Source of the DNA: Thioalbus denitrificans
GTDB taxonomy: Bacteria > Pseudomonadota > Gammaproteobacteria > DSM-26407
NCBI RefSeq assembly: GCF_003337735.1
Contig: NZ_QPJY01000001.1
Coordinates: 660,175-724,174, forward strand
Length of the DNA stretch: 64,000 nt
Direction: 5' to 3'
A program made the translations under genes and the position numbers. The notes below the pieces were generated by a model. It was not told the origin of the DNA. It did no database searches and saw nothing but the letters and a program-made list of their open reading frames with translations. How positions within the stretch are numbered: the stretch's first letter is position 1; every line of letters begins with the position of its first letter. Shown here in pieces: positions 10,441 to 51,939 of this stretch.

Positions 10441-11295
10441 TCACGCCGGCGGCGGCTCCTCCGCCGCCATCTCCCGCAGTCCCCGCAGCGCCGTGTCCAG
10501 GGCCTCCGCCCGGTTGTGGAGGGGGTAGACCACGTAGGCCGGCATGGTGAATACCGGGCTGTTCGCCACCTGCCACAGCCGCCCCTGTTCCAGCAGGGGG
10601 CGGACCATGCGGGCCGGGAAGTAGGCGGAGCCGCCGTTGCGCAGCAGGTACTGCATGGCGAGCCAGCCGATGTTGGCGGTGAGTGCCGGGGGCGGGGTAT
10701 CCGGGTAGCGGGTGGTGAACTGGGCGTGGAACTCCTGGCCCCAGTCGATATGGACGTAGTCCGCATCCGGCCAGCCGCGTTCGGGCGCGGTGCCCACCAG
10801 CAGCAGCGATTCGTCGAACAGCCGCTCGGTGCCGAGCCCCGGCCGGCTCTCGGGGGTGTACATGACTCCGATGTCGACGGTGCCCTGCACCAGCCCCTGG
10901 ATCATCTCCTCCTCCATGCCGATCTCCATGCGCAGGGAGATGTCCGGCGCCATGCGCCGCATCCACTGCGCCCAGCGCGGCAGGAAGCCCTCCCACAGGG
11001 CGATGCGTCCCGCCAGGGTCAGGCTGCCGCGGAAGCCCGCCGGGAGGCCCACTTCGTGACAGGCCTGCTCGAGGGTCTGCACCAGGGCCTTGGCGTGGCG
11101 CAGGAAACGCTGCCCGGCGGGGGTGAGCTCGGCGCCGCCCCGGCCACGCTGGAACAGCCGTGCCCCGAACCGGTTTTCCAGCGCCTGGATGCGCGCGCTG
11201 ACCGTGGACTGGGTGACGTGCAGGCGGGCGGCGGCGCCGACGAAGTTGCCGGCGGCAGCCACGGCGAGGAAGGTGCGGGCGAACTCGATGTCCAT
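10441..11295 (-). CDS. LysR-family transcriptional regulator
   Basis: A 284-residue protein with the N-terminal LysR helix-turn-helix (FARTFLAVAAAGNFVGAAAR, then LHVTQSTVSARIQALE) and a C-terminal effector-binding domain. It is transcribed divergently from the DsrC-like gene with 141 bp between the starts, an arrangement in which LysR proteins usually control the divergent gene. The operon target is therefore likely the DsrC-like gene; the inducer is unknown. Confidence 0.9.
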   Translation of the reverse strand: MDIEFARTFLAVAAAGNFVGAAARLHVTQSTVSARIQALENRFGARLFQRGRGGAELTPAGQRFLRHAKALVQTLEQACHEVGLPAGFRGSLTLAGRIALWEGFLPRWAQWMRRMAPDISLRMEIGMEEEMIQGLVQGTVDIGVMYTPESRPGLGTERLFDESLLLVGTAPERGWPDADYVHIDWGQEFHAQFTTRYPDTPPPALTANIGWLAMQYLLRNGGSAYFPARMVRPLLEQGRLWQVANSPVFTMPAYVVYPLHNRAEALDTALRGLREMAAEEPPPA

Positions 11296-47641: not shown

Positions 47642-47953
47642 ACACGGGCGGGGATGGCTCCCGGATTGGTGGCCGGGCCGACGGGGGCGGTCTTCCGGGG
47701 CCGCTGGGTACCCGGTTGGCCGCCGCCCCGGGGTGGATGTCCGACAGCAGGGCGCCGGGAGAAGGGGCGGGGTGCGTAGAGGCTCTCCCTTTCCGCTCGT
47801 GGTGGCCGATACGGGGAGTCTGCGCGAACCGGCAAGGCGCGTGTCCTGAACGCTTCGCCGAACGCAGGGTGATGACGTCGATTCCCGGCTGGCAACCGGC
47901 GCTCCCCTAGCCAAAAAAATATTTTCTCTGCCAAAATTTTTCTTATTTCATGG

Positions 47954-47982
47954 TTGACTAATATGCGGGGTGGTCGGATAAT
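47954..47982 (+). promoter_or_regulatory. Promoter of the candidate small RNA
   Basis: TTGACT (47954-47959), 17-bp spacer, GATAAT (47977-47982), with a very A/T-rich UP-like stretch at 47905-47950 just upstream. The strongest promoter-like match seen in the window. Confidence 0.8.
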
Positions 47983-47988
47983 GCGCAC

Positions 47989-48071
47989 CGAAGCCTTCCG
48001 AGGCTTCATCTCTCTCGACTCCTCCATCCTCCTTTGGTGGTTTGACGCGGCCTTCCAGGCCGCGTTTTTTT
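47989..48071 (+). ncRNA. Candidate trans-acting small RNA
   Basis: About 83 nt. 5' stem GAAGCCT/AGGCTTC with loop TCCG (47990-48007), then an unpaired C/T-rich stretch that contains TCCTCC twice (48019-48033, anti-Shine-Dalgarno words), then the terminator stem CGCGGCCT/AGGCCGCG with loop TCC (48046-48064) and seven T. It has no start codon followed by a useful frame. The architecture (seed in a C/U-rich single strand between two hairpins) matches trans-acting sRNAs that mask ribosome-binding sites. Family not recognised. Confidence 0.75.
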
Positions 48072-48854: not shown

Positions 48855-49244
48855 ATGGCAGAACAGTACTACGGCACCGGCCGTCGCAAGAACGCCACCG
48901 CCCGCGTCTATCTTCGTCCGGGCAGCGGCAACATCGTCATCAACTCCAAGGTGCTCGATGAGTACTTCGGCCGCGAGACCGCCCGCATGGTGGTCCGGCA
49001 GCCCCTCGAGCGCACCGAGACGACCGAGAAGTTCGACGTGATGGTCTCGGTGGCGGGCGGCGGCACCACCGGCCAGGCCGGCGCCATCCGCATGGGTCTC
49101 ACCCGCGCCCTGATGGAGTACGACGAGTCCATGCGTGGCACCCTGCGCGCCGCCGGCTACGTCACCCGTGACGCCCGCGAGGTGGAGCGCAAGAAGGTCG
49201 GTCTGCACAAGGCGCGCAAGCGTCCGCAGTACTCCAAGCGCTAA
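48855..49244 (+). CDS. rpsI: 30S ribosomal protein S9
   Basis: A 129-residue S9 ([19 protein letters not shown]) with the C-terminal [17 protein letters not shown] tail that reaches the P site. Follows rplM in the usual operon. Confidence 0.99.
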
Positions 49245-49650: not shown

Positions 49651-50634
49651 ATGAAAAAGCTGCTTGCCCTGGCTGTCGCCGCCGCCTTCGCCGCGCCGCT
49701 GGCCGCTTCCGCCAACCCGACCGTCTATGGTCGCGTGAACGTCAACATGGTCCACGAGGACATCGATGACGGCTCCTCCGACGCCTGGGACGTGCAGAAC
49801 AACGCCTCCCGCGTGGGCGTGAAGGGCTCCGAGGACCTGGGTAACGGCCTGGCCGCGGTGTACCAGTTCGAGTTCGGCGTCGACGCCTCCGACTCCGGCG
49901 ACCTGAGCGGCCGCCTGGCCTACGCCGGCCTGACCGGCGGCTTCGGCACTTTCGCCATGGGCCGGCAGTGGACCCCCTACTACGGCTCCGTGGACAAGTC
50001 CGACATCTTCCAGACCAACGGCATGAACGACGAGTATCTCGGCCTGACCCGCGTCGGCAACGCCGTGGCCTACGTGACCCCGAACTTCAACGGCCTGTCC
50101 GGCAAGCTGGCCCTGGTCATCGACAACGGCGGCGCCGAGGACGTGGGCGACGACTTCGCCGACTGGTGGAACCTCTCGGTGGACTACGACAACGGTCCGC
50201 TGAGCGTTGGTTTCTCCTACCTGACCGCCCAGGGCACCGGTGCGGCGGACATCGTCAACGGCTCCCTGTGGGGGCTGGCCGGCAAGTACAACTTCGGCAT
50301 GTTCGCTCTCATCGGTCAGTATGAGACCCTGACCGACGTGGACGGGATCGATGCCGACGCCTACGCCATCGCCGGCGAGCTCTATCTCGGCAACAACACC
50401 CTGCGCGCCAAGTACGGCAAGCAGGACTTCGATATCTATGGCAGCGACTACGATCCCTCCAACTGGGTCATCGAGGCCGAGCACAACTTCAGCAAGCGCA
50501 CCCGGGTCTTCGTCTCCTACGAGGATTCCGAGGGCAGCTACGGGCTGACCGGTCTGGGCAAGTACCTGGTCGGCGACTACAGCTCCGCGACGGAGCACCA
50601 GCGCTTCGGCATCGGCATCCGCCACGACTTCTGA
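49651..50634 (+). CDS. Porin 1 of nine (Gram-negative trimeric porin family)
   Basis: A 327-residue outer-membrane porin: signal peptide of 21 residues (MKKLLALAVAAAFAAPLAAS A), mature start NPTVYGRVNVN, then the shared core (NNASRVGVKGSEDLGNGLAA, FGTFAMGRQWTPYYGSVDK) and the C-terminal F in RFGIGIRHDF needed for BAM insertion. It should form a 16-strand barrel with the eyelet loop 3 around RQWTPYYG. First in the array; the loop after NMVHED is short and the fourth-quarter loop contains TGAADIVNGS and DFDIYGSDYDPS not shared by others. ATG 49636 is an alternative start. Confidence 0.95.
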   Translation: MKKLLALAVAAAFAAPLAASANPTVYGRVNVNMVHEDIDDGSSDAWDVQNNASRVGVKGSEDLGNGLAAVYQFEFGVDASDSGDLSGRLAYAGLTGGFGTFAMGRQWTPYYGSVDKSDIFQTNGMNDEYLGLTRVGNAVAYVTPNFNGLSGKLALVIDNGGAEDVGDDFADWWNLSVDYDNGPLSVGFSYLTAQGTGAADIVNGSLWGLAGKYNFGMFALIGQYETLTDVDGIDADAYAIAGELYLGNNTLRAKYGKQDFDIYGSDYDPSNWVIEAEHNFSKRTRVFVSYEDSEGSYGLTGLGKYLVGDYSSATEHQRFGIGIRHDF

Positions 50635-50958: not shown

Positions 50959-51939
50959 ATGAAGAAGCTGCTTACCCTGGCTGTCGCCGCCGCTTTCGCC
51001 GCGCCGCTGGCCGCCTCCGCCAACCCGACCGTCTATGGCCGCGTGAACGTCAACCTGGTCCACCAGGACATGGACTACATGGGTGATGTCTCCGGCGACG
51101 CCGAGGCCTGGAATGTGGAGAACAACGCCTCCCGCGTGGGCGTGAAGGGCTCCGAGGACCTGGGCAACGGCCTGGCCGCGGTGTACCAGTTCGAGTTCGG
51201 CGTCGACGCCTCCGACTCCGGCGACCTGAGCGGCCGCCTGGCCTACGCCGGCATCACCGGCGGCTTCGGCACCTTCGCCATGGGCCGCCAGTGGACCCCC
51301 TACTACGGCTCCGTGGACAAGATCGACATCATGCAGGTCGGCGGCATGAACGACGCCTACCTGGGCCTGACCCGCGTCGGCAACGCCGTGGCCTACGTGA
51401 CCCCGAACTTCAACGGCCTGTCCGGCAAGCTGGCGCTGGTCATCGACAACGGCGGCGCCGAGGACGTGGGCGAGGATTTCGCCGACTGGTGGAACGCCTC
51501 CGTGGACTACGACAACGGCCCGCTGAGCGTCGGTCTCTCCTACCTGGCCGCCCAGGGTGACGTGGACGGCTCCCTGTGGGGTCTGGCCGCGAAGTACAAC
51601 TTCGGCATGTTCGCCCTGGTCGGCCAGGTCGAGCGGGCTGACGAGGATTACATCTCCAACGTGATCAACTCCGACCTGTCCGGCGACACCACCGCCTATG
51701 CGCTGGGTGGCGAGCTGTACCTCGGCAACAACACCCTGCGCGCCACCTACGGCCACGTGGACAGCGACGACGGCGACGACGGCAGCACCTGGACCCTGGG
51801 CGCCGAGCACAACTTCAGCAAGCGCACCCGGATCTTCGCCGAGTACGAGGATTCCGAGCTGAACCGCATGAAGCACAGCGGGCACTACCACGAGTCCGAT
51901 GGCCAGCGCTTCGGCGTCGGCATCCGCCACGACTTCTAA
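50959..51939 (+). CDS. Porin 2 of nine
   Basis: A 326-residue porin nearly identical in DNA to porin 1 through the signal peptide and the first strands, but from codon 30 with an own first loop (HQDMDYMGDVSGDAEAWNVE) shared in type with porins 3 and 4. Later part has YISNVINSDLSGDTTAYALG and ends RFGVGIRHDF. CAGGAGAGC precedes the ATG. Transcribed from its own promoter and closed by its own terminator, so it is not an operon with porin 1. Confidence 0.95.
   Translation: MKKLLTLAVAAAFAAPLAASANPTVYGRVNVNLVHQDMDYMGDVSGDAEAWNVENNASRVGVKGSEDLGNGLAAVYQFEFGVDASDSGDLSGRLAYAGITGGFGTFAMGRQWTPYYGSVDKIDIMQVGGMNDAYLGLTRVGNAVAYVTPNFNGLSGKLALVIDNGGAEDVGEDFADWWNASVDYDNGPLSVGLSYLAAQGDVDGSLWGLAAKYNFGMFALVGQVERADEDYISNVINSDLSGDTTAYALGGELYLGNNTLRATYGHVDSDDGDDGSTWTLGAEHNFSKRTRIFAEYEDSELNRMKHSGHYHESDGQRFGVGIRHDF

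Follow-up and report, generated by a model that had tools for sequence, protein, structure and literature searches.

A predicted small RNA gene with two anti-Shine-Dalgarno words upstream of rplM in Thioalbus denitrificans, and its probable kinship with the double-hairpin, S17 and NmsR RNAs

Organization of the locus

The window analysed in this study is a stretch of 64,000 nucleotides from Thioalbus denitrificans. Within it, the gap upstream of rplM, put at 770 bp in the initial annotation, was measured at 772 bp, extending from the end of the preceding ORF (47641) to the start of rplM (48414). The preceding gene is a small ORF with a weak likeness to thioredoxin-like 2Fe-2S ferredoxins (Pfam match below the cut-off), while the conserved downstream neighbour is rplM itself, encoding ribosomal protein L13 (48414-48842, + strand; PF00572, 3e-49), followed by rpsI, encoding ribosomal protein S9 (48855-49244, + strand; PF00380, 4e-48). 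Further along the same strand, two adjacent and similar porins (PF13609) were observed at 49651-50634 and 50959-51939, downstream of a tRNA-Gln(CTG).

The UP-like tract, promoter, hairpin, doubled TCCTCC and terminator previously described in this gap were each present where they had been placed, all on the + strand. An A/T-rich tract (about 47913-47949), which may serve as an UP element, lies upstream of a sigma-70-type promoter (47954-47982) that agrees with the consensus at 10 out of 12 positions, with TTGACT at 47954-47959, a 17-nt spacer and GATAAT at 47977-47982; no second promoter-like site occurs in the gap, for which shuffles predict 0.1. A 5' hairpin of 7 bp (47990-48007), with a perfect GAAGCCT/AGGCTTC stem and a TCCG loop, is followed by the conserved core CTCCTCCATCCTCCTTTGGTGG (48019-48040) and by an intrinsic terminator (48044-48071) with its stem at about 48044-48064 and seven T at 48065-48071. 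The predicted sRNA transcript, supported by anatomy, fold and conservation and with a start placed from the -10 box, would be about 83 nt long (47989-48071, + strand). The fold of 88 nt reached -33.6 kcal/mol compared with -20.2 +/- 2.6 in shuffles (z -5.1).

Promoter, hairpins and anti-Shine-Dalgarno words

During the comparison of homologues, a comparably spaced promoter-like site was detected in 97 of 140 distinct loci and in 17 of 140 shuffled ones, counting sites with a score of at least 9 that lie 20-60 nt before the core, with the shuffles scored at any position. A 5' hairpin of varying sequence was retained in 87 of the 97 promoter-bearing homologues, where the stability of the 5' part equalled that of the few best among 40 shuffles (mean -12.3 versus -4.5 kcal/mol). 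No clear promoter was seen at six loci (L009, L044, L100, L128, L143 and L146), where the core is preceded by '...TGAAAGAC' or '...TTGAAAGGC'; these copies may be 3'-terminal cleavage products of longer transcripts. Two further loci, L052 and L104, share GCCAAAGGCAGTATCG(C/T)AGTAGTG about 45 nt before the core, likewise without a promoter.

Both anti-Shine-Dalgarno (anti-SD) words read TCCTCC. The first (48020-48025, + strand), identified from the sequence and from the RF02278 alignment, corresponds to site 1, or alpha-SD1, of the relatives, and the second (48027-48032, + strand) to site 2, or alpha-SD2, lying mostly in a loop with an unpaired probability of 0.87-1.0. Other TCCTCC pairs starting within 15 nt of each other are scarce in the whole window, with one on the + strand (overlapping, at 10907) and none on the - strand. 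The stretch of about 38 nt holding these words was originally described as unpaired and C/U-rich; it is indeed C/U-rich and carries TCCTCC twice, but it is not wholly unpaired, as a weak central hairpin (48023-48041, + strand) with comparative support is predicted within it. Its arms occupy 48023-48028 and 48036-48041 and enclose the loop CTCCTTT (48029-48035), the outermost U.U being unpaired in the window copy, so that part of the first anti-SD word falls within the 5' arm and the second is displayed in the loop.

The central hairpin is near-invariant within the gammaproteobacterial set, where covariation lends it no support. Across subfamilies, its loop length differs and its arms change, reading UCCAUC/GGUGGU in the gammaproteobacterial copies, UCCACC/GGUGGA in Burkholderiales, ACCAUC/GAUGGU at the locus L023 and UCUAUU/UGUAGA in NmsR. 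In the register UCCAUC/GGUGGU, 137 of 150 cells pair, compared with 70-74 in slid registers and 134 with shuffled letters; the excess over shuffles, 24 of 2000 of which reach 137 paired cells, is small, since there is little variation in most columns. The register CCUCCA/UGGUGG, which is the thermodynamic optimum, fitted the comparison more poorly (112 of 150 cells versus 137) and was set aside. At L205 (1502-1561, - strand), the arms UCCACC/GGUGGA are kept around the loop CAAACATC, and the second anti-SD word is gone, yet the copy still lies before rplM. The terminator, for its part, showed two-sided changes at all 9 of its 9 pairs among 57 homologues.

Distribution and conservation

A BLAST search with 176 bp against 94 genomes, comprising one or two per family, recovered the sister genome (92% identity) along with short matches, limited to the core and terminator, from many other families. 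Public genome contigs contain an exact core 20-mer in at least 118 places, a selection by exact match that raises the apparent identity of the core. Among the matches listed, the named ones belong nearly all to Chromatiales, Thiotrichales, Thioalkalivibrio, Sedimenticola, Arenicella, Granulosicoccaceae, Acidiferrobacteraceae and unclassified Gammaproteobacteria, with one from Gallionellaceae. With a covariance model (R1) built only from gammaproteobacterial loci, using 57 diverse sequences without clear members of the Burkholderiales type, the core and terminator were detected in 138 of 369 genomes of the class (E <= 1e-3). The hairpins and TCCTCC words, whose retention in relatives the initial annotation had set beforehand as one of the points on which its proposal could be refuted, are conserved over much of the class, and the terminator covaries.

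The genome of the window harbors one good copy (71 bits with R1). Candidates for a second copy were rejected, as they were weak matches of at most 26 bits with the appearance of terminators following a stop codon. Elsewhere, a Thiotrichaceae locus (L093:5783-6040) carries a tandem triplet of cores with hairpins, spaced 118 and 103 nt, and another genome (G283) likewise has three close copies; these sibling arrays resemble those of NmsR. Since sRNAs are usually conserved among close relatives only, a core of about 22 nt retained over a large part of the Gammaproteobacteria, often at a place shared with Burkholderiales, would make this an unusually old trans-acting RNA.

Relationship to known RNA families

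The Rfam search at the gathering threshold reported only a tRNA and no match for the sRNA. Below threshold, RF02278 aligned with the window copy from end to end (model positions 1-64), including CUCCUCCA, the hairpin with the CU-rich loop and the terminator, at 33.9 bits against a cut-off of 50 (E 1.7e-5 for the region); as this score lies below the cut-off, our claim is one of homology within a superfamily and not of RF02278 membership as Rfam defines it. Homologues of the window copy scored up to 48.5 bits with this model. In Burkholderiales members exceeding the cut-off, the core is the same and the loops are longer. Reciprocally, R1 picked up the RF02278 loci of Burkholderiales with 32-71 bits and, in weaker but placed matches of 21-38 bits, those of NmsR. 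RF02877 (NmsRb) gave 22.2 bits on the window copy, below its cut-off of 52, but the anatomy of this type is present, namely the 5' hairpin, anti-SD words before and in the loop of the central hairpin, and the terminator. Weak Rfam matches at the same place to Bp1_781, ncS025, anti-hemB, ncS16 and SorY lie far below their cut-offs, and we treated them as resemblance in the terminator or CU-rich stretch.

Several Burkholderiales loci (L223-L229, L231 and L236) were matched by RF02278 and RF02877 alike, and NmsR loci are matched by RF02278 and R1 as well, which suggests, at the level of sequence models, that a single superfamily stands under two Rfam entries. A structural similarity between RNAs of the RF02278 type and NmsR was noted earlier by Sass and colleagues (PMC5688073), and the family has been described as exclusive to Betaproteobacteria (PMC7011215). 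The window copy appears to be an uncatalogued member of a distant gammaproteobacterial branch of this known superfamily of double-hairpin, S17 and NmsR RNAs. The original description, by Kimelman in 2012, reportedly named its members toxic RNAs. Compared with the mostly open-access literature consulted, the spread in Gammaproteobacteria, the synteny with rplM in common with Burkholderiales and the covariance-model link between RF02278 and RF02877 are apparently new, although earlier notice is possible.

The window copy shares with ncS03, ncS05, ncS27 and ncS62 of Burkholderia cenocepacia, members of RF02278, the CUCCUCCA site, the hairpin with a CU-rich loop and the terminator (PMC5688073, PMC4603805), and many Burkholderiales members lie before rplM as it does. 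Its central stem is shorter (about 5 bp, one of them G.U), its loop is shorter (7 nt), and one good copy per genome contrasts with three to five in Burkholderia. In Bordetella pertussis, S17 and its form S17S, which the authors relate to RF02278, likewise have two CU-rich single-stranded sites matching ribosome-binding sites, one ahead of the first loop and the other within it; however, S17S is encoded between coq7 and a glycosyltransferase gene and is released by RNase E from a 190-nt precursor, whereas in the window a promoter directly precedes the 83-nt RNA (PMC11722255). The Neisseria RNAs NmsRA and NmsRB (RcoF, NgncR_162/163; RF02877) also consist of a 5' hairpin, alpha-SD1, a hairpin with alpha-SD2 and a terminator (PMC5362039), but they are tandem siblings with arms UCUA/UAGA, compared with UCCA/UGG in the window copy, and adjacency to rplM was found for none of the strong NmsR loci retrieved.

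Synteny with rplM

Of 77 genomes, selected largely for the strength of their matches and with two Burkholderiales added, 58 carry the RNA ahead of rplM in the same orientation, at a distance of 90-691 nt (median 168), and it was also observed upstream of rplM at 14 Burkholderiales loci (22 genomes with a match). That the place, the core and the terminator are all shared favours common descent over convergence on an anti-SD word. The constancy of the place in these genomes and Burkholderiales loci, together with the lack of a strong promoter between terminator and rplM in the window, would also be expected of a cis-acting 5' leader or attenuator of rplM-rpsI, in which most transcripts begun at the promoter would end at the terminator and regulated read-through would supply the operon. 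We regard this as improbable. Promoter-like sites of rplM's own follow the terminator in most genomes, being strong in Burkholderiales (of the type TTGACA-18-TAAAAT), weaker in Gammaproteobacteria and weak in the window; in 19 of the 77 genomes, rplM does not directly follow the copies listed; Burkholderia copies also occur at other places (PMC5688073); and the relatives act in trans (PMC11722255). A stand-alone gene fits better than a cis leader, while a double role for the RNA is possible.

Proposed function and candidate targets

The locus is very likely a real sRNA gene. We hold with good confidence that it encodes a stand-alone, trans-acting and probably Hfq-dependent sRNA of about 83 nt, belonging to the superfamily of RF02278 (ncS27, S17) and RF02877 (NmsR). 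Gene anatomy, conservation, terminator covariation, homology, rplM synteny and the presence of hfq (contig C11, 106 bits) were all computed in this study, and the run of seven T would give the RNA a U-tail at its end. Its expression, Hfq binding, targets and repression in Thioalbus denitrificans are predicted by analogy with its relatives. In the proposed mechanism, the 5' hairpin would cap the RNA; site 1, the CUCC that precedes the central hairpin, and site 2, its CUCCUUU loop, would each pair with the ribosome-binding sites of selected mRNAs, probably for metabolism and transport, and block their translation; and the terminator with its U-tail would end the RNA and offer Hfq a landing place.

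The double anti-SD word had led the initial annotation to predict broad translational repression in trans. Repression in trans is consistent with the experimentally studied relatives bearing both words, which act in trans to repress several mRNAs (PMC11722255, PMC5688073, PMC5362039), but 'broad' should be taken as a set of mRNAs and not as general translation, for 92 genes were up in B. pertussis without S17, 70 of them with matching sites (PMC11722255). S17 directly represses BP2158, direct pairing with mRNA is reported for it with compensatory mutations, and Hfq co-precipitates S17S (PMC11722255). NmsR is controlled by RelA, targets genes of the TCA cycle and has had its two anti-SD motifs mutated singly (PMC5362039). 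In Burkholderia, growth is slowed by over-expressed ncS27 and accelerated by the reverse complement of the CU region of this RNA (PMC5688073); the 'toxic' effect differs among relatives, with S17S barely affecting E. coli (PMC5688073, PMC11722255).

The stretch UCCUCCUU resembles the anti-SD tail of 16S rRNA. The RNA might on that account be a decoy mimicking the 16S rRNA 3' end (CCUCCUU) and titrating a protein or ribosomal factor without pairing to mRNA, and a core near-invariant in the gammaproteobacterial set is what a protein site might display as well. We find this very improbable, considering the direct pairing and compensatory mutations for S17 (PMC11722255), the varying loop length and sequence in Burkholderiales, and the loss of the second anti-SD word at L205. 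A functionless chance arrangement of promoter-like and terminator-like sequence can practically be dismissed, given the conservation, the covarying terminator, the retained promoter and the synteny across many families.

For the trans-acting sRNA, a more speculative history, which we offer as a rather doubtful proposal, is that one sRNA gene upstream of rplM-rpsI predates the split of the betaproteobacterial and other gammaproteobacterial orders, has been inherited since, and was the ancestor of the toxic/double-hairpin, S17 and NmsR RNAs; its place would then reflect a coupling of ribosome production with the repression of metabolic mRNAs, acting as a growth-linked brake.

In this RNA, sulfur-oxidising and phototrophic bacteria gain a predicted regulator with testable targets. 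The porin leaders, proposed earlier as targets, were unsupported, since whole-RNA duplexes with the porin leaders of the window were dominated by stem pairing. Sites in the own genome complementary to AUCCUCCUUUGG at 11 or more of 12 positions are few, and the four located at the SD position, taken as leads only, precede a membrane peptide of 44 aa (at L248), the same 46-aa peptide twice (at L250 and L251) and a protein named by eye as GlcG/HbpS-like (at L252). The two 46-aa peptides (MRKLIVALTLVFASSMVLAHGGGCRKDSPPGQCCHKDHSTGIVHCH) are near-tandem (L250:1500 and L251:902, that is, C9:30962 and C9:31560), and each has an SD complementary to the RNA loop at 11 of 12 positions.
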